64,000 nucleotides of DNA, taken from NCBI RefSeq assembly GCF_004358445.1, contig NZ_CP037951.1, positions 979,501-1,043,500 on the forward strand, written 5' to 3'. The stretch comes from Parashewanella tropica. Lineage in GTDB: Bacteria > Pseudomonadota > Gammaproteobacteria > Enterobacterales > Shewanellaceae. Shown here one piece after another: positions 55,172-64,000 of the stretch (positions are counted from its first letter, which is position 1; every line of letters begins with the position of its first letter). Below the pieces are notes generated by a model. The model had not been told where the DNA came from and searched no databases. It was given only the letters and a program-made list of their open reading frames with translations. A program made the position numbers and the translations under genes.

Positions 55172-55180
55172 GAAAAGAAA

Positions 55181-55209
55181 AAAGACTTAGCTCGATGAGC
55201 TAAGTCTTT
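55181..55209 (-). terminator. Terminator of ssrA
   Basis: AAAGACTTAGCTC pairs perfectly with GAGCTAAGTCTTT around a 3-nt loop, with six T on the minus-strand side, immediately downstream of the ssrA 3' end. Confidence 0.9.
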
Positions 55210-55217
55210 GTTTTATT

Positions 55218-55260
55218 TGGTGGAGGCGGGGGATTTGAACCCCCGTCCAGAAAGCCTACA
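55218..55260 (-). ncRNA. ssrA: ssrA (tmRNA) 3'-end fragment, probable attachment site
   Basis: On the minus strand the sequence gives the last about 43 nt of a tmRNA: TGTAGGCTTTCTGGAC, then a T-arm of five G / TTCAAAT / five C, then GCCTCCACCA with encoded CCA. The terminator follows at once. Upstream of TGTAGG the match to tmRNA stops: no tag reading frame, pseudoknots or 5' acceptor strand is found in the next 350 nt, which instead encode ribosomal proteins L36 and L31. A bare ssrA 3' end is what remains after an integrase-driven element has entered ssrA and displaced the native end. The complete gene should lie outside the window. Confidence 0.8.
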
Positions 55261-55355
55261 TTTTATTCTAGTTACCGTGCCATGGGCGTTGTAGAGCATT
55301 TTCAATAACTTAAAATACCGATGTGTATCATCAGAGACCGTCACGTAGCGGCTGT

Positions 55356-55629: not shown

Positions 55630-55890
55630 CTAACGTGATTTTGAAGCAGTATTTCCAAAACGCTTATTAAATTGGGCAACTCGCCCTTCGGATTTAGCCT
55701 GTTGTTTTTCCCCTGTGTATACAGGGTGAGAAGCGCTTGAGATATCTAAATGGATTAATGGATAAGTATTGCCATCCGTCCATGTCACTGTTTTATCACT
55801 TTTACATGTTGATCTTATTAAAAAATCAGTATTTGAACTTGAGTCTCTAAATACCACATAGTCGTATTCAGGATGGATACCTTTTTTCAT
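55630..55890 (-). CDS. rpmE2: Zinc-independent ribosomal protein L31 type B
   Basis: 86 residues, [19 protein letters not shown] at the start and [12 protein letters not shown] and [11 protein letters not shown] towards the end, as in YkgM/RpmE2. It lacks the CxxC of the zinc-binding L31. It takes the place of L31 on the large subunit when zinc is scarce and so frees zinc. First gene of rpmE2-ykgO. The palindrome at 55905, 15 bp before the start, fits Zur control. Confidence 0.95.
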
Positions 55891-56183: not shown

Positions 56184-56202
56184 GATAATAATTCTCATTA
56201 AG
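56184..56202. promoter_or_regulatory. Fur box before the FecI-type sigma gene
   Basis: GATAATAATTCTCATTAAG agrees with 14 of 19 positions of the Fur consensus (GATAATGATAATCATTATC). It lies between a likely -10 (TATAAAAT, 56168-56175) and the ATG at 56211, so iron-loaded Fur would block transcription of the sigma factor. Confidence 0.8.
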
Positions 56203-56210
56203 ATTGCGTT

Positions 56211-56738
56211 ATGTCAACATATAGCCTAGCCAACTCTAATCCTCAAAAAATTGAGAGCTTGTACTTACACCATAATCACTGGTTGAAGTCTTGGTTGTAT
56301 CGTCGGGTATCTTGTCCAGAAAAAGCGGCTGATTTAGCCCAAGATACTTTTGTGCGTTTACTAGGTAAAACTGTTCAACTTGATACTGTGGTAGCAGCAA
56401 GGCGCTACCTTCGCTGTATTGCAGACGGGCTGTGTGTTGATATGTGGCGACGAAAGTCAGTCGAACAGGCTTGGCTTGAAACCTTAGCTGAGCGTCCTGA
56501 ACTGGAAGAAATATCCGCAGAAGATCGAGCCATTATCATCGAAACCATCTGTGAAATTGATGAGATGCTGCGAAACTTACCTGAAAACGTTGCCACGGCC
56601 TTTTTACTGTCGCAAATGGACGGCCTTACTTATAAGCAAATTGCTGCAGAGCTTGAAGTATCAGAGCGCATGGTCAAAAAATACATGGCACGTGCTATGT
56701 TCGAATGCTTACTCATTGAATCTCGCCACTACCAATAA
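56211..56738 (+). CDS. ECF sigma factor, FecI type
   Basis: 175 residues. Sigma region 2 spans about 15-80 (SWLYRRVSCPEKAADLAQDTFVRLL, RYLRCIADGLCVDMWRRKS). Region 4 spans about 115-168 (LRNLPENVATAFLLSQMDGLTYKQIAAELEVSERMVKKYM). The motifs DLAQDTFVRLL and TYKQIAAELEVSERMVKKY are diagnostic of FecI-like iron-starvation sigma factors. FecR follows 13 bp later and the target receptor comes next, the canonical fecI-fecR-fecA order. Fur box directly upstream. It should direct RNA polymerase to the matching motifs at 57799 and 61404. Confidence 0.94.
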   Translation: MSTYSLANSNPQKIESLYLHHNHWLKSWLYRRVSCPEKAADLAQDTFVRLLGKTVQLDTVVAARRYLRCIADGLCVDMWRRKSVEQAWLETLAERPELEEISAEDRAIIIETICEIDEMLRNLPENVATAFLLSQMDGLTYKQIAAELEVSERMVKKYMARAMFECLLIESRHYQ

Positions 56739-56751
56739 TTAGAACATCAAG

Positions 56752-57771
56752 ATGTCACGGAAGATGCACGCTGCAACAGTAAATACCAACACGCCAAAGC
56801 CAACTCATCAGCAATTGCAACAAGCTGCGCTTTGGTTCGTGGTGGTCAACGATGAAAATCAATCCGAAGCTGATCATCAGCAATGGCGAGCGTGGTTAGC
56901 TGAAAACCCACAACATCAACAAGCTTGGCAGTATGTGGAAAATATCAGTGGTCGTTTCGCCAAGGCGCAAAATGACCAATTTGCTAATACCTGTCAAACC
57001 ATCACCACAATTCGTGAACAACGTCTGTCTCGTCGTCGCTTACTGCAAGCGGGAGGGATGATGTGTGTGGCATGGTTTGGTGTCCGCTTTACCCAATTAC
57101 CAGAATTGGCGGAACACTACGCCAATCGTTTTAATGCGGATCGCTATACAGGTGTTGGTGAAGTGGCTGAAGTTCAGCTGCAAGATGGGGGTAAACTCTG
57201 GCTAAACACCGATTCTGCAATCAACATCAATTACACCTCGAACGCCAGAGTCATCGAGTTACTGCAAGGCGAGATTTACATCGAAACTGCCAAAGATAAA
57301 AACCAACGCCCGTTCAAAGTCGAAACCTCAATGGCGACGCTAACGGCACTTGGCACACAATTTACGGTACGAGAATACGAGCATCGTCAATTGTTAGCGG
57401 TCTTTGACGGTGCGGTTGAAATCAAAACTCGTAATGGTGAAAAGCAGGTGATTTCAGCAGGACAGCAAAGCTTTTTTACCCAAGATACAATAGAGACGCC
57501 TACTAAGGTTGCTGCTGAACATGGTGCTTGGCATAAACACATCTTACTGGCTGACAACATCAGTTTAAAACAATTAGTGGCTGAATTAGGTCGCTATCGC
57601 TTGGGTTATCTTGGTGTTGCTCCTGATATTGAAGATATCAAAGTCATCGGTGCCTATCCGACTCAACAGCCTGAGTTGGCACTGCAATTATTGCAAGACT
57701 CTCTACCCATAAAAATCACTCAAATCTCGCCTTGGTGGGTGAATATTTCGTCAAAAAATTCAAGCCAATAA
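56752..57771 (+). CDS. FecR-type anti-sigma / sigma regulator
   Basis: 339 residues. The N-terminal DUF4880-type region (QAALWFVVVNDENQSEADHQQWRAWL) binds the sigma factor. A membrane segment follows a basic RRRLLQAGG at about 93-115, and the periplasmic FecR domain is VQLQDGGKLWLNTDSAIN through ALGTQFTVREY. The C-terminal STN-like part (LKQLVAELGRYRLGYLG) contacts the signalling domain of the receptor. It relays receptor occupancy to the sigma factor. An alternative in-frame start 4 codons on has no better ribosome site. Confidence 0.93.
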   Translation: MSRKMHAATVNTNTPKPTHQQLQQAALWFVVVNDENQSEADHQQWRAWLAENPQHQQAWQYVENISGRFAKAQNDQFANTCQTITTIREQRLSRRRLLQAGGMMCVAWFGVRFTQLPELAEHYANRFNADRYTGVGEVAEVQLQDGGKLWLNTDSAININYTSNARVIELLQGEIYIETAKDKNQRPFKVETSMATLTALGTQFTVREYEHRQLLAVFDGAVEIKTRNGEKQVISAGQQSFFTQDTIETPTKVAAEHGAWHKHILLADNISLKQLVAELGRYRLGYLGVAPDIEDIKVIGAYPTQQPELALQLLQDSLPIKITQISPWWVNISSKNSSQ

Positions 57772-57798
57772 AAAAATTGACAAAAAATTCAAAAAAGT

Positions 57799-57824
57799 GG
57801 TTCCCCTTTTTTTATCTCGTTCGG
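57799..57824 (+). promoter_or_regulatory. Putative ECF sigma promoter of the STN receptor
   Basis: GGTTCC (57799-57804) and CGTTCGG (57818-57824) are 13 nt apart, preceded by an A/T-tract with AAAATTCAAAA. The same arrangement, with identical spacing, recurs at 61404, so it is a good candidate for recognition by the adjacent FecI-type sigma factor. Confidence 0.6.
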
Positions 57825-57913
57825 TTACCTAATTAGATGGGCGTAAAACGCCCAACCCAAATGGTTTGAAAATAACCGATTAACTCACTTTTGCCTTTTA
57901 CTAGGAAACAACA

Positions 57914-60900
57914 ATGTCTCGACAACAACTTGGAAGTCAATCGAAAGTCGCTTCCACCGTTAAGCAGCCTTTGCGTGCTAGCCACTTAGCCGTTTGTGTC
58001 TGCTTTGGCTTATTCGGCACAACTATGGCAACCGATACCTTTGCCGCCCAAACTGAGCAGCAACAAACGCAAAACCACAGCTTTAATATTCAAGCAGGTT
58101 CACTGTCGGATGCACTCACCCAATATTCACGTGCGACAGGCGTGTTCTTTAGTGGTGCAGGCAAGCTGACTGACGGTAAACGCACTTCTGGATTAAAAGG
58201 CAGTTACACCTCAGCACAAGCACTGCAAATGTTGCTGAAAGGCAGCAATATTCAATACCAATTTAATGGTAACAGTGTGGCGTTATTTGCTAGCGGTACA
58301 GCGGGAAACGACAGTGATATCGAACTGTCAGCAGTACGAGTAACGGGCGAGTACCAAAGCGGCGACGACCGTGACGAAGCCGGATACAACACAGTATATG
58401 ACGAAGACGCCTCAACCAGCTTTATCGGTAAAAAAGACATTGAACGCTTTAAAGGCACTAGCCCTGCCGATATTTTTAAAGGTTTACCTAACACCTTTAG
58501 TGGCGATCCACATGCAGGTGGTGGTATCGACCCTAACATTCGTGGCTTCCAAGGTCCGGGGCGTGTTCCAGTCACCATCGACGGAACTGAACAAGCTCTA
58601 ACTGTCTGGAATGGTTATCGCGGTGCGTCAAACCGCAGCTATATCGACCCTAACTTGATTGGTAATGTTACCGTACACAAAGGCCCTTCATTAAACCCTG
58701 ATGCCCATACCTCAGTGGGTGGTGGTGTTGAAATTAAGACGCTATCCGCCATTGATATTATTGATAAAGGTGACACCTTTGGGATGGAGTTTATCGCAGA
58801 TACCAGTAGCAACAGTACTTCAGTACGAGAGCCTACCTTATACTATGGTAAGGACTGGCATGATGTGCCTTTATACAACCCTTCTGGTAGCCCAGATACT
58901 GTAAACCCTAAATGTTTATCGTTATATCGAGATTGCGCATTAGAAATCGCCCCTCGTCAGCGTGGTGGTAGCAGTAACAACTTATTTAACGGTCAAGACA
59001 ATTCATTCCGTCTTGCTGTGGCAAAACGAGGCGATAACTGGGATATTTTAGGCGCTTATGCCTATCGTAAAAAAGGCAATTATTTTACAGGTACTAAAGG
59101 CGCAGGCTTTTATCAGCAACCTAGACCGGAAGGAGGGCTACAGGGGCGTAATCCTGTTATCGAACCTCGTCATGTCGGTTTATCTCATATTCCGGGTGAA
59201 GAGGTCCCCAATACTTCTGTAGAAATGAAGTCTTTCCTGCTTAAAACTACTTATGAGCTGAGTGATTTTCAAAAAATACAAGTGGGTGCTCGCTATACTG
59301 ATGCTAAGGTGGGAGAAATTTTAGCCAGTCGCTCTGCCAATCGTGTTGAAGGAGGTAAATTAGCTCAGTGGCCAATCAGTAAAATGAAGCTACAAGCTTA
59401 TAATGTTGACTACCGCTGGAATCCTGAAAATCCATTATTAAATGTAAAGGCTAAAGTATGGACAACTTTGTCTGATACCTTTTCATTAAGAGGTGGCGGT
59501 GCGGTACAAAATTACAGAAGAAAAACTCCAGAAAACAATGACCCCAAAGCGAACATTTTGTTTAATGACGCACAAGCAGATTATACAGCCAAACGCTTCG
59601 GAGCTAATTTTAGTAATAAAATGGAGTTAGCAGATGGCTTAAACCTAACGCTTGCGGGTCGTTACCAATACGAACAATTACGGCCTAAACTAGGCTTGCC
59701 GCCACTGTCCATAAAAAATGTTAATGATACAAATAATGGTTGGCAAGGTCCTCGCCGCGCAGGTACCCGTAAGGAGTTTAATGGTAGTTTTCGATTTGAT
59801 TGGCAACCGGTTGAATTTCTGCGTTTAAATGCCGGTGCGCGTTATGGTCATTACTCGCTGCGTGATGATTATGTGGTAAACCGAAAAGCCGCCGGAGACC
59901 TTAATGCAGTTTCGCCAGGTACAATAGGAACTGGTAAAATCATACGCTTTAAAACCACCGAAACACGTACCGCAGAAGAGCAACAAGCAAGAATTGACGC
60001 TAAATCGGCTGAGATTAGAGCCCAATTTGATCCTAGTGCATTTGATAAAATTAGAGCTGATATTCAAAACCTTGAAAATGAAATTCATGGTATAAGAATT
60101 AATCCGGCTTTTCCTCCATTTTTAAAGCAACTTCTTATTGCTGAAAGGCAACCAAGGCTTGATAAACTTAAGGCCGATTTAGCTGATGCATTAGCCGATC
60201 GCGAAGGCACGATTAATCGTTTAATTGCAGAGGCAACCACTAGGATTAATAACGATAAAACCTACGTAAAAGACAATACGAAAGAATGGCTGCGTGACAG
60301 TAATGGTAAATTTAGTCGTGCGGGCAATCCTTGCTTATCAGCTGCTGAAATAAAACGCTTGAGGATTATTCCTGAGTCTTGCAGTACTGGTGCAGCAATA
60401 GGTGAGCGTGTTATGCCAAGTAAGCTTAAAGGCTCAGGTTGGATGCCAGAAGCACAAGCGACCTTTATTTTTAGCGATAACAGCCGCAGTTATATCCGAT
60501 ACGCCGAATCGCTGCGCTTCCCAAGCTTATTTGAAGGTACATACGGCTTCTCTGCTACCTATAACCCAAATTATGGATTAAAACCAGAGCGTGCTAGCAT
60601 TGTTGAGCTTGCCTATATTCATAACTTTGACAATCTTAGTACCAAGATAACCTACTTCGACCAAACCATTGATGATGTAATGGATCGTAGTCAATTGCAT
60701 TTTAGCAATATGGAAAAACAGCATATCAGTGGCTTAGAGTTCCAAAGTCGTTACGATAATGGCACCTTATTTGCTGACTTAGGTTTGGCTTACAATTTGA
60801 AAAATCAGGTTTGTGATGCTGGAACAGCTATAGAGCAGTCTTTTGTTCCCAAACAAGGTTTTGATATCGCCAAATCGCAACAATCCTGTGTTCGCGCTGG

Positions 60901-61231
60901 ATTTTCTGGCGGTACTGGTAATGGTTACTTAGCCGCCCGTGCCATTCCTCCATTGTCTGGTAACTTGTTAGTGGGCGCGCGTTTCTTAGATAAAGACTTA
61001 GAAACCGGTATGCGTATTAACTATTCATCAAAGAGTCACGATGACGACCCTGTACAACGTGCCGCGTCAACGACGGTTGATGCTTATGTGAACTATCAAG
61101 TTAAGGACTTCTTAAGCTTTGAGTTGACAGGGACGAACTTAGGCAACCGTTACTATGTCGAACCTATGACCATCACCAGCCACCCAGCACCGGGTCGCAC
61201 CTTTAAACTGGGAATGAAAGTTAAGTTTTAA
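57914..61231 (+). CDS. Signalling TonB-dependent receptor with STN domain, probable hemophore/heme receptor
   Basis: 1105 residues, long for a TonB receptor. Order: signal peptide to about 45 (ending TFAA); STN signalling domain about 52-110 (FNIQAGSLSDALTQYSR); plug about 140-270 (FKGTSPADIFKGLPNTF, DPNIRGFQGPGRVPVTI, NVTVHKGPS); then the barrel. Residues about 685-780 form an unusual helical, coiled-coil insertion (EEQQARIDAKSAEIRAQ...LADALADREGTINRL), followed by a Cys pair about 18 residues apart near 805-825. The barrel resumes WMPEAQATFIFSDN with the heme-receptor-like RYAESLRFPSLFEG and ends GRTFKLGMKVKF. It sits between fecR and a hemophilin-like gene, so it probably binds the hemophore, takes up heme and signals to FecR. 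Confidence 0.9.
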   Translation: MSRQQLGSQSKVASTVKQPLRASHLAVCVCFGLFGTTMATDTFAAQTEQQQTQNHSFNIQAGSLSDALTQYSRATGVFFSGAGKLTDGKRTSGLKGSYTSAQALQMLLKGSNIQYQFNGNSVALFASGTAGNDSDIELSAVRVTGEYQSGDDRDEAGYNTVYDEDASTSFIGKKDIERFKGTSPADIFKGLPNTFSGDPHAGGGIDPNIRGFQGPGRVPVTIDGTEQALTVWNGYRGASNRSYIDPNLIGNVTVHKGPSLNPDAHTSVGGGVEIKTLSAIDIIDKGDTFGMEFIADTSSNSTSVREPTLYYGKDWHDVPLYNPSGSPDTVNPKCLSLYRDCALEIAPRQRGGSSNNLFNGQDNSFRLAVAKRGDNWDILGAYAYRKKGNYFTGTKGAGFYQQPRPEGGLQGRNPVIEPRHVGLSHIPGEEVPNTSVEMKSFLLKTTYELSDFQKIQVGARYTDAKVGEILASRSANRVEGGKLAQWPISKMKLQAYNVDYRWNPENPLLNVKAKVWTTLSDTFSLRGGGAVQNYRRKTPENNDPKANILFNDAQADYTAKRFGANFSNKMELADGLNLTLAGRYQYEQLRPKLGLPPLSIKNVNDTNNGWQGPRRAGTRKEFNGSFRFDWQPVEFLRLNAGARYGHYSLRDDYVVNRKAAGDLNAVSPGTIGTGKIIRFKTTETRTAEEQQARIDAKSAEIRAQFDPSAFDKIRADIQNLENEIHGIRINPAFPPFLKQLLIAERQPRLDKLKADLADALADREGTINRLIAEATTRINNDKTYVKDNTKEWLRDSNGKFSRAGNPCLSAAEIKRLRIIPESCSTGAAIGERVMPSKLKGSGWMPEAQATFIFSDNSRSYIRYAESLRFPSLFEGTYGFSATYNPNYGLKPERASIVELAYIHNFDNLSTKITYFDQTIDDVMDRSQLHFSNMEKQHISGLEFQSRYDNGTLFADLGLAYNLKNQVCDAGTAIEQSFVPKQGFDIAKSQQSCVRAGFSGGTGNGYLAARAIPPLSGNLLVGARFLDKDLETGMRINYSSKSHDDDPVQRAASTTVDAYVNYQVKDFLSFELTGTNLGNRYYVEPMTITSHPAPGRTFKLGMKVKF

Positions 61232-61243
61232 CTATTCCTAACC

Positions 61244-61332
61244 CGTCATGCCTACGTAGGCAGGCATCCAGTGATTTCCATATTTTAAACGTTTCAATAA
61301 GTCACTGGGCTCCTGCCTTCGCAGGAGCGACG
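61244..61332. repeat. 89-bp imperfect inverted repeat (extragenic palindrome)
   Basis: The arm CGTCATGCC..AGGCAGGCATCCAGTGA and the complement of TCACTGGGCTCCTGCC..GAGCGACG are about 31 bp each with a few differences. Repeats of the CGTCATGCC/CAGTG type are widespread, dispersed palindromes in proteobacteria. It lies just after the receptor gene and may terminate or stabilise its transcript. Confidence 0.75.
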
Positions 61333-61403
61333 TGCTTGCCTAAATACGCATTCTAGTAATAAATCAAACTCTTCAAAAAAATCATAAAAAAATTCAAAAA
61401 TGG

Positions 61404-61429
61404 GGTTCCCCTTTCTTTATCTCGTACGG
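61404..61429 (+). promoter_or_regulatory. Putative ECF sigma promoter of the hemophore gene
   Basis: GGTTCC (61404-61409) and CGTACGG (61423-61429) with the same 13-nt spacer as at 57799, and the shared AATTCAAAAA upstream and CTTT-TTTATCT between. It gives the hemophore gene its own start, 128 bp upstream of the ATG. Confidence 0.6.
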
Positions 61430-61556
61430 CTTATTAAGTAGGAACCAAATTTGTGGTTGTGTTTTAATCCGCAGCCACACCTAACCGCTAATAAGTATAT
61501 GGGCTTATTGGCTTTATAAACTCTGAGGTAAACGCCTCAACAAAAGGAAATGTGAA

Positions 61557-62303
61557 ATGAAATTAAAATTAACGGCACTTATTGCTGCTATGGCTGTTAC
61601 TGGTTTTGCTCAAGCGGACATTATTGGTGGGCAAAGCTTTGAAGGCTATATCAAAGTAGGAAAATCTGTCATTGATACCGGAAAGACTCACAAGCCTGGA
61701 TTCGCTGGAATTGGTGTTTATGGTATGGGGCTTGACGGAATTATTGATTTCAAGGGTCTGACTCAATCTTCGAACGTTGTTAACGGCTTCTATCAGCTAG
61801 TGATGGACACGCCTCCGCCAGCAGGCGCGCCAGCTGAACACACTAACTTAGGCACATTCAATTTTGCCAAAGCGGGTACTGGTGATGTCTGGTTTGGTGA
61901 ATGGGCACAAGATATGTCTGGCGCAAGTGCAAACGATGGACGTCGTGCGGTTTATTATGTCGGTGACAATAAAGGCACCACTATGCCAACTGGTGGTGTT
62001 GCTACCTACAGCGTGACAGGAATTAACCACGGTAATGCTTTAGGTGGTGATTTTACCGCTAACTTTAACAGCAATAAGTTGACAGGCACACTTACCAGCA
62101 ACTCAGGTTTTGTAACAAATCTTAGAATCAATGCTGATATTAACAGCAGCAATGCAAGTTTCTCTGGCTCAGCAATTGCTAATGGTTTAGTTACTGGTAC
62201 AACTCAAGGTCACTTTTTTGGTCAAGATGCTGCTGCATTAGCTGGTATGGCTAAATTTGGCATTCGTCATTTTGACACTGCCTTTGGCGGTAAGAAAAAA
62301 TAA
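61557..62303 (+). CDS. Hemophilin-like Slam-dependent secreted hemophore
   Basis: 248 residues with a signal peptide of about 20 (ending GFAQA) and no lipobox, so a soluble, released protein is expected. The C-terminal half (GGDFTANFNSNKLTGTLTSN, then GTTQGHFFGQDAAALAGMAKFG) is the eight-strand barrel typical of TbpB-like and hemophilin (HphA) proteins handled by Slam. The N-terminal part (SFEGYIKVGKSVIDTGK...) would hold the heme pocket. It is followed by a Slam gene and preceded by the TonB receptor, as in Acinetobacter and Haemophilus hemophilin clusters. Heme binding is inferred from family and context; ligand residues cannot be fixed here. Confidence 0.85.
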   Translation: MKLKLTALIAAMAVTGFAQADIIGGQSFEGYIKVGKSVIDTGKTHKPGFAGIGVYGMGLDGIIDFKGLTQSSNVVNGFYQLVMDTPPPAGAPAEHTNLGTFNFAKAGTGDVWFGEWAQDMSGASANDGRRAVYYVGDNKGTTMPTGGVATYSVTGINHGNALGGDFTANFNSNKLTGTLTSNSGFVTNLRINADINSSNASFSGSAIANGLVTGTTQGHFFGQDAAALAGMAKFGIRHFDTAFGGKKK

Positions 62304-62330
62304 TCAGCTTTCCCTAGGTTGATGTTATTA

Positions 62331-62595
62331 AGGGCGTGTTTATCTTTCTTGTTTATTTTTGCAGCGACAAGTTGGTTATCTTATGTAAGGCAGAGTTTGT
62401 GAAGTGTGGTTACTCCACATAAACAAACGATAACGCAGCAGAAATGACCAATTTACGCTGTCTTTGATGCTTTTGAGCACTTCCTGTTCTGTGTTGTAAT
62501 CAGCTCACTTAGGTGTCTAAGCTTCTCTGATTACGCCTTGAACAGAAAAGTGCTCAAATAGCACAAAATTTAAACCTGAAAGGTAAATACGCCCT
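62331..62595. repeat. 265-bp MITE-like element between hemophore and slam
   Basis: Terminal inverted repeats AGGGCGTGTTTATCTTTC (left) and the complement of GAAAGGTAAATACGCCCT (right) match at 16 of 18 positions. A large nested palindrome inside pairs TGAGCACTT...GTAATCAG with CTGATTAC...AAGTGCTCA. No coding frame. It separates the two genes of the secretion pair and could affect slam expression. Confidence 0.75.
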
Positions 62596-62596
62596 A

Positions 62597-62626
62597 ACAG
62601 GAGTTAGCTTTCGGGCTAGCTCCTGT
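62597..62626. terminator. Hairpin before slam
   Basis: ACAGGAG and CTCCTGT pair, with TAGC/GCTA inside, 16 bp before the slam start. There is no proper T-run, so attenuation or translation control is as likely as termination. Confidence 0.4.
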
Positions 62627-62642
62627 GCTCGTTTAAATTAAT

Positions 62643-64000
62643 ATGGAAATGCGTGCTGTGCTTCTCTTTAAGTTAGTAAAAAGAATTATTTTCGTCCCCC
62701 TTATTTCACTGCTCTCTTTTCTTATTGCTAACGCCTATGCCAATGACGAAGATACTCAGTTACGGCTTGAGCAGCAAGCTGAGCAGGGTTTACAAAAAAA
62801 AGAGCAAGCCATTTTACAAGATGAAATGGCACGAGAAGCAAGGGACTCGAAACTCACGATTAACGGTCGCACTTATCACGTAAACAATAACGTTAATGAA
62901 CTTGGTCGTGCGCTGTATTTAGCGGTACAACACAAAATGTGGCCGGCGGTAAAAGAGTTTTTACCTCGTTATCAAGCCATAGTAACTCATGACTTGATGT
63001 TAGTTTTGTATGCCGAAGGCGGATTGGCAAGACATGCTGGAAACCTCACTCAAGCTGAAAACAAATATCGCCAGCTTTTGATTTTAAAACCGGACTTTAT
63101 TCTGGCGAAATTAGAACTGGCGCGAGTGCTATTTGAAAACCATAAAAATAATGAAGCCGCAAAACAGTTTGCTGAAATAGAAAAATTCATCCCTAAATAC
63201 GACCCCAAAACCCAAGGCGTTCAAGCCACTATTGCCGCTTATAGCAAAGCCATTCGGAATCGTGACGAGTGGCATGGCTTTTTCTCATTCGGTCCCAGTT
63301 TTGATAGTAATATTAACCAAGCCTCGGGGTTGACGGATCGTGTATTAACCAGTCCATTCGTCACTCCTTCAATGGGGGTCGGGATTGAAACTAGTCTTGA
63401 AAGACGCTGGTCGTTATCAAACCACAACGGCATACAATGGCGTACTCTACTATTTGCCAGTAATTATTATGGTGAGTCTTACGTTACCCTTGTAGATCGA
63501 CGAAACAAAAAATTAAGAGATCATAGCGAGTTTAGCCAAGGGACGTACATTACCAAGTTAGGTTACAGCTACAAGGAAGCGAAAAATCAGTTGTTCATTG
63601 CCCCCTTATTTGAATTGAAATTACTGGATAAAAAAGCTTTCTTTACTTCGGTGGGATTAACCGCAGAATGGTTACGCTTTATATCGCCAACGACAATGAT
63701 GAAGCTAGAGCTTAATTATAAAAAACAGGAATTTATAAAGCCGGATTTACGACTGCAAAACGGCATAGACTTTTCCAGTTATTTCACCCTATGGAAAAGA
63801 GTTTCGGATAAGTTAACCATGTTTGGTGGTATGGATTACAGCCAAAAACGAGCGAGAGATACCAATTTTAACTCTGATAACTTTGGCTTGAGGCTTGGGC
63901 TATCGTACCCATTAACTGACGGAATTAATACAACTGTCTTTAGCTCGTTTCGCAACCAATCATTTAAAGGTTACAACGCATTTTTTAGGGATACCAGAAA
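62643..64000 (+). CDS. slam: Slam / surface lipoprotein assembly modifier (DUF560), 3' end outside window
   Basis: Open to the right edge (452 codons seen, close to the usual full length of about 480-500). The N-terminus has a hydrophobic signal (LVKRIIFVPLISLLSFLIANAYA), then a TPR-type helical domain: VNELGRALYLAVQHKMWPA, YAEGGLARHAGNLTQAENKY, then ILAKLELARVLFENHKNNEA. From about residue 210 the DUF560 barrel begins (GFFSFGPSFDSNINQASG). Slam proteins move their partner (here the hemophilin-like protein) through the outer membrane. ATG 62643 has no good ribosome site; ATG 62649 is an alternative. Separated from the hemophore gene by a MITE-like repeat. Confidence 0.92.
   Translation, partial: MEMRAVLLFKLVKRIIFVPLISLLSFLIANAYANDEDTQLRLEQQAEQGLQKKEQAILQDEMAREARDSKLTINGRTYHVNNNVNELGRALYLAVQHKMWPAVKEFLPRYQAIVTHDLMLVLYAEGGLARHAGNLTQAENKYRQLLILKPDFILAKLELARVLFENHKNNEAAKQFAEIEKFIPKYDPKTQGVQATIAAYSKAIRNRDEWHGFFSFGPSFDSNINQASGLTDRVLTSPFVTPSMGVGIETSLERRWSLSNHNGIQWRTLLFASNYYGESYVTLVDRRNKKLRDHSEFSQGTYITKLGYSYKEAKNQLFIAPLFELKLLDKKAFFTSVGLTAEWLRFISPTTMMKLELNYKKQEFIKPDLRLQNGIDFSSYFTLWKRVSDKLTMFGGMDYSQKRARDTNFNSDNFGLRLGLSYPLTDGINTTVFSSFRNQSFKGYNAFFRDTR

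Follow-up and report, generated by a model that had tools for sequence, protein, structure and literature searches.

The end of a 64,000-nt stretch of Parashewanella tropica DNA (contig NZ_CP037951.1; the window, with window-equivalent coordinates carrying its numbering past its end) holds most of a row of eight genes, fecI-fecR-hphR-hphA-slam-exbB-exbD-tonB, encoding a predicted heme uptake system built around a secreted hemophore. Pfam backs all eight identities and all eight frames are open over their full length. The first five genes form a single row on the + strand, of which the four ending within the window are intact, while slam overruns the window end and is complete in the adjoining stretch (L002), followed there by exbB, exbD, and tonB. 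Domain calls were made with Pfam and NCBIfam, the latter supporting several of the first five genes, mostly below its strict equivalog cut-offs. ECF stands below for extracytoplasmic function.

56184..56202, + strand, Fur-box-like site 5' of fecI, 15/19 matches to the assumed consensus
56211..56738, + strand, fecI, FecI-type ECF sigma factor (sigma-70 regions 2 and 4: PF08281 6.6e-16, PF04542 6.5e-13)
56752..57771, + strand, fecR, FecR-type anti-sigma regulator (PF04773 6.1e-22; PF16220, DUF4880, 6e-13)
57782..57824, + strand, predicted ECF promoter of hphR, copy 1 of a 43-nt element, 39/43 identical to copy 2
57914..61231, + strand, hphR, HphR-like TonB-dependent heme receptor (STN PF07660 1.6e-9, plug PF07715, barrel PF00593)
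61387..61429, + strand, predicted ECF promoter of hphA, copy 2 of the 43-nt element, 39/43 identical to copy 1
61557..62303, + strand, hphA, predicted soluble hemophilin-type hemophore (HphA_N PF22828 6e-26, HphA_C PF22829 4e-15)
62643..64000, ending at window-equivalent 64166, + strand, slam, Slam outer-membrane translocator of 507 amino acids (PF04575 1.5e-25, TPR_Slam PF24575 2e-25)

An initial annotation of this DNA had read FecI, FecR, an STN-domain receptor, a hemophilin-like protein and Slam in one row and strand, and these identities were borne out: PF04575, PF07660, PF04773, and the hemophilin models all matched the translated genes, so that an ECF sigma factor, a FecR regulator and an STN receptor are present together in the cluster. 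The NCBIfam matches were NF041727 for FecI (1.2e-46) and NF007296 for FecR (8.4e-70), both below the equivalog cut-off, the heme receptor model TIGR01785 for HphR (6.5e-70, under the cut-off of that model), and slam_lipo for HphA (4.8e-37).

The identity of HphA, which had been proposed as hemophilin-like and open to refutation by structure prediction, was explored with an AlphaFold model (predicted local distance difference test score, pLDDT, 88.9). Its top match among PDB folds was the S. maltophilia holo HphA (TMq 0.81), and the leading fold matches were the hemophilins of S. maltophilia, V. harveyi, A. baumannii, and Haemophilus; an HphA without the hemophilin fold was rejected on this basis. 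By sequence, HphA matched solved hemophilins (8gmm, 8.9e-50), and the matches listed from Pfam, PDB sequences and PDB folds were of hemophilin, HpuA, TbpB, and related barrel types, none of them HasA-type. In the sequence alignment, H45 and H95 of HphA pair with two A. baumannii HphA histidines that lie 63 residues apart. The accessible text on A. baumannii HphA names H43 and H106 as heme ligands and reports a double mutant of the two unable to bind heme; because the aligned histidines show the same 63-residue spacing, H45 and H95 are the likely counterparts of this pair. They are conserved in 55/70 and 68/70 HphA relatives, respectively (70 of 80 relatives, ten with an open frame >300 amino acids being left out of the count). 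The protein contains no cysteine over its whole length; it therefore has no lipobox and cannot be a lipoprotein, and a signal peptide was assigned by eye. Taken from sequence and model, HphA is a soluble, non-lipidated hemophilin, with heme binding and secretion through Slam as predicted properties.

The two copies of the 43-nt promoter-like element end 89 bases before the hphR start and 127 bases before the hphA start. With at most three mismatches, their 25-base core occurs at two sites in the 4.22-Mb genome, which are these same copies, and nowhere in the reversed control. When the best ungapped match between the hphR and hphA upstream regions was scored in 41 loci, the window ranked top with 31; the runner-up, at 19, came from a Neisseriaceae locus and was Fur-like, and 205 mononucleotide-shuffled pairs reached 14 at most. 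Identity between the copies centres on a promoter-like core with the layout TCC-N11-CTCGTnCG (TCC-N11-CTCGTTCG) of the E. coli fecR-fecA gap. Among 111 sequences (3.66 million strand-bases), this layout was confined to the window (and L002, which overlaps it) and E. coli fec, apart from a single occurrence in L038 that is apparently due to chance. Motif and spacing at hphR agree with the fecA upstream region, and a sigma-dependent promoter is predicted there. Neither an ECF promoter at hphA nor a switch common to receptor and hemophore was described in the accessible parts of the literature searched, which did not include two J Bacteriol papers dealing with the prevalence of hemophilins and with their homologs.

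A Fur box before the sigma gene had also been claimed initially, and the site at 56184 supports it by its match to the Fur consensus, which we take to be GATAATGATAATCATTATC. Two sites in the window reach 15/19 on the scanned strand, against about 0.3 per shuffled window (6 in 20), and a match of at least 15/19 lies upstream of fecI in 29/63 loci (the present one included) compared with 8/630 random stretches.

We next consider the 80 HphA loci kept as relatives out of 181 confirmed by a scan of genome contigs. Slam adjoins HphA in 78/80, so the proposed pairing of the two genes is conserved; a receptor is present in 78/80, FecI plus FecR in 63/80 (with a weak FecI call, <50 bits against the window FecI, in 26 of these 63), and the window order FecI-FecR-HphR-HphA-Slam in 56/80. 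Four of the 17 loci without FecI/FecR (L031, L049, L054, L102) end at a contig edge upstream. The arrangement was thus less distinctive than initially supposed: the published A. baumannii hemO cluster has this layout, and the idea that the combination is unprecedented was rejected on its gene table and on the 56 loci in the same order. The gene arrangement is already known from Acinetobacter, and the new evidence on its wiring is the duplicated promoter together with the co-occurrence of STN and FecI/FecR. Pfam STN was detected in 62/76 receptor N-termini, that is in 62/63 receptors accompanied by FecI/FecR (the sole exception being L027) and in 0/13 without them; L031, L049, and L073, with cut or broken receptors, are omitted from this test, and no receptor lies in the available stretch of L054 or L102. 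The 13 STN-free receptors belong to Xenorhabdus and Photorhabdus, Neisseriaceae, and Haemophilus/Necropsobacter, about three lineages, and therefore represent fewer independent events than the count suggests.

Some features of these relatives stand apart. Two tandem hemophilin genes precede Slam in L006/L008, L033, L038, and L041, three being Stenotrophomonas or kin, and a contig labelled Rickettsia endosymbiont (L035) carries a Stenotrophomonas-like cluster, probably through bin contamination. A receptor search of plasmids returned 91 records, all <60% identity, A. baumannii and Vibrio included.

Before hphR, the pattern TT(A/G)nGG-N16-CGG or a near form was found in Vibrio, Pseudoalteromonas, Photobacterium, Salinivibrio, Microbulbifer, Marinobacterium, Methylophaga, and Marinomonas. 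According to the available text of one report (PMC9249621), HasI targets carry the promoter sequence TTTACGGGTTT; the -35 half in our relatives resembles it, and their commonest fully matching form is TTACGGGTTT. Thirty-five loci were examined for such HasI-like sites and 20 were tested by profile, the 15 others being the window locus, ten Acinetobacter loci, L042, L046, L071, and L073; loci with a FecI match <80 bits were excluded from the promoter tests. Only 13 receptor sites went into the profile, and the genus under test was excluded, although the GG-N16-CGG spacing had first been seen by eye in receptor and hemophore upstream regions, before training, which is a possible source of bias. 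Of these 20 loci, in all of which hphR is preceded by a HasI-like site, 12 have one before hphA as well (Vibrio 9, Pseudoalteromonas 2, Photobacterium 1), equalled in 0 or 1 of 1000 shuffles, with a narrow margin in L075 (23.1 versus 22.8 for the best shuffle); the Salinivibrio hphA site is weak (3 of 1000 shuffles). In ten loci, exbB too has a HasI-like site, no more than about 100 bases from its frame. A whole-locus scan at score 17 returned six further sites away from hphR, hphA, exbB, and the PKD genes described below, and did not pick up the hphA site of L072, which is weaker. As a background figure, the strict pattern had 0 matches in 369 class genomes and 2 in the reversed control.

Between hphR and hphA, the Vibrio loci L072, L075, and L083 contain PKD-repeat lipoprotein-like genes (Pfam on two proteins); in L075 and L083 each of the two is preceded by a HasI-like site, in L072 one of the two, and the products may be components of the uptake system that have gone unrecognised. 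Two HasI-like sites lie in the hphR-hphA gap of L085. The STN exception, L027 (Photobacterium galatheae), combines FecI and three HasI-like promoters with a FecR-like frame of 113 amino acids and a receptor without Pfam STN (L027 6073-7000), possibly a rewired or constitutive version.

The surroundings of the cluster point to its origin.

55173..55261, - strand, copy of the ssrA 3' end, left boundary of the insert; the second copy lies inside the intact ssrA, at about window-equivalent 66615-67023
55630..55890, - strand, ribosomal protein L31 gene (type B by eye; PF01197 7.5e-25)
62331..62599, no strand assigned, repeat of about 268 bp resembling a miniature inverted-repeat transposable element (MITE), in the hphA-slam gap; 30 genome matches, 23 near full length, itself included

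The two ssrA copies bound an insert of 11.4 kb, from window 55173 to window-equivalent 66704, in which the eight genes from fecI to tonB and the L31 gene were recognised, with no type I ABC secretion genes among them. In a blastn comparison at the ssrA site (pieces <40 bases not shown), the same-genus relative G004 has an empty site, with left-flank DNA joined straight to ssrA and a single copy of the repeat. HphA_N was detected in 3/117 relatives and 3/369 class genomes, the present genome counted in both, and in none of four other same-genus genomes sampled. No PF00589 tyrosine integrase was found near the insert, other recombinases not being searched. On this sequence evidence, the cluster is an insert at ssrA, probably acquired horizontally. 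Repeated ssrA 3'-end copies also flank small segments with differing cargo in the same-genus loci L106, L107, L109, and L111, including a TOTE-type primase-helicase, a SoFic-like Fic protein, a large subtilase and an ankyrin-repeat protein, with no integrase among five cargo proteins scanned; ssrA thus seems to be a preferred site for cassettes, some of which hold defence-like genes.

We read the locus, with a probability of roughly three in four, as a horizontally acquired heme operon of the A. baumannii hph/hemO type, in which a receptor-driven FecI switch serves both hphR and hphA. When iron is scarce, Fur would release fecI-fecR. HphA would be exported by Sec, secreted via Slam, capture heme and deliver it to HphR, powered by the insert-encoded ExbB-ExbD-TonB. 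Engagement of HphR would then shift its periplasmic STN domain, inactivate FecR and free FecI, and FecI-RNA polymerase would transcribe hphR and, at the second promoter copy, hphA. Since the same promoter stands before both genes, receptor engagement would raise the supply of both, giving positive feedback on hphA; the trigger might be heme-loaded hemophore, or heme plus hemophore as for HasR. The loop proposed by the initial annotation thus gained support from the shared ECF-type promoter-like element and from STN tracking FecI/FecR, whereas its trigger, receptor occupancy by the hemophore, is one that we still infer. Consistently with such a loop, the accessible text on an A. baumannii HphR mutant reports lower HphA expression.

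Several observations weigh against this circuit. The A. baumannii mutants may suffer from polar effects, as their authors caution, and S. maltophilia HemI, a FecI-like sigma factor, did not autoregulate the operon holding its own receptor gene, as far as the available text goes. A looser form of the window motif gave three forward genome matches, two of them the 43-nt copies, against nine in the reversed control, and therefore only the strict form is informative. Eight of the 20 profiled relatives lack a clear hphA site (Methylophaga 3, Marinobacterium 2, and one each from Microbulbifer, Marinomonas, and Salinivibrio). None of the ten Acinetobacter loci tested has a HasI-like site at hphR or hphA, and none has the exact fecA-type layout; by eye, their hphR carries a fecA-like element with spacing one base longer, and their hphA no ECF element, only a short Fur-like stretch in common with hphR. 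A dedicated hemophore promoter is therefore not universal. These Acinetobacter and marine loci would also fit a sigma factor that controls the receptor only, with hphA transcribed from an ordinary Fur-/sigma-70 promoter and the 43-nt match a remnant of local duplication. We regard this as unlikely, because the window has no Fur-like site above 11/19 before hphA, because identity is focused on a promoter-like core with the E. coli fecA layout, and because an unrelated sequence is duplicated at both of the same places in the 12 other loci.

Other observations weighing on the same side concern the state of the island: the MITE-like element parts hphA from slam, and Pfam HemS and heme oxygenase were not found in the genome, other heme-degrading families not being tested. 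Together with the lack of a PF00589 integrase nearby, they would suit a decaying or silent acquired element, an explanation that we find improbable given that the eight cluster frames are open to full length and that the promoter copies and heme ligands are retained. A closer competitor departs from the favoured circuit in the trigger only: heme or hemoglobin would act directly on the receptor, and the hemophore would be a product of the switch without hemophore-specific feedback. The A. baumannii authors' model, in its accessible form, lets HphR act without HphA, and HasR induction is reported to need heme on the receptor plus unloaded, not loaded, hemophore (PMC9249621, available text). Nothing decisive stands against a direct trigger, since a receptor promoter at the hemophore gene fits both, and we hold it to be a serious possibility, somewhat short of even odds.

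If the receptor-driven switch on both genes is true, the supply of hemophore would depend on how well it performs at the receptor, and Slam hemophilins would allow the HasR model to be tested independently, by asking whether heme, hemophore or both act as the signal. The co-occurrence of STN with FecI/FecR would further allow sigma-switched and unswitched hemophilin systems to be predicted from sequence. More broadly, the balance of the comparison tilts towards a single sigma-switch design that has been coupled to two hemophores, themselves unrelated and secreted by unrelated machinery. Its promoter would be HasI-like in Vibrio, Pseudoalteromonas, and Photobacterium and fecA-like in the window. 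The hemophore gene, having its own copy of the receptor promoter, would close a self-reinforcing scavenging loop, to which the same promoter would add the Ton motor genes (ten loci) and PKD genes (some Vibrio).

Among known systems, E. coli FecI-FecR-FecA has a sigma factor, an anti-sigma factor, an STN receptor and the promoter layout TCC-N11-CTCGTTCG as in the window. The Fec system takes up ferric citrate without a secreted carrier protein. The Xenorhabdus Hrp locus (HrpA-HrpB-HrpC), in the available description (PMC8406197), has a TonB, a receptor, a Slam and a soluble hemophilin as in the window; in the Xenorhabdus loci we examined, neither FecI/FecR nor STN was found, whereas the window has both. 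In the accessible text of PMC10483418, the A. baumannii hemO cluster (heme cluster 2; HphR-HphA-HsmA) runs ECF sigma, anti-sigma, hphR, hphA, hsmA/Slam, TonB-related gene and heme oxygenase, and its order, hemophore fold and ligands are those of the window. It differs in having heme oxygenase where the window has exbB-exbD-tonB, the ten Acinetobacter loci tested have before hphA neither a HasI-like nor an exact fecA-type ECF site, and the ssrA insertion sets the window cluster apart. Finally, the Serratia marcescens Has system (HasI-HasS-HasR-HasA-HasDE-HasB) shares the logic and a parallel gene order, as far as described in the available part of PMC9249621, and the relatives' TTACGGGTTT-like promoter is near its reported HasI site TTTACGGGTTT. 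The initial annotation had likened the locus to Has with an unrelated hemophore and secretion path, and the comparison upholds this view: HphA is a predicted hemophilin rather than a HasA, and its predicted route is Slam rather than an ABC exporter.

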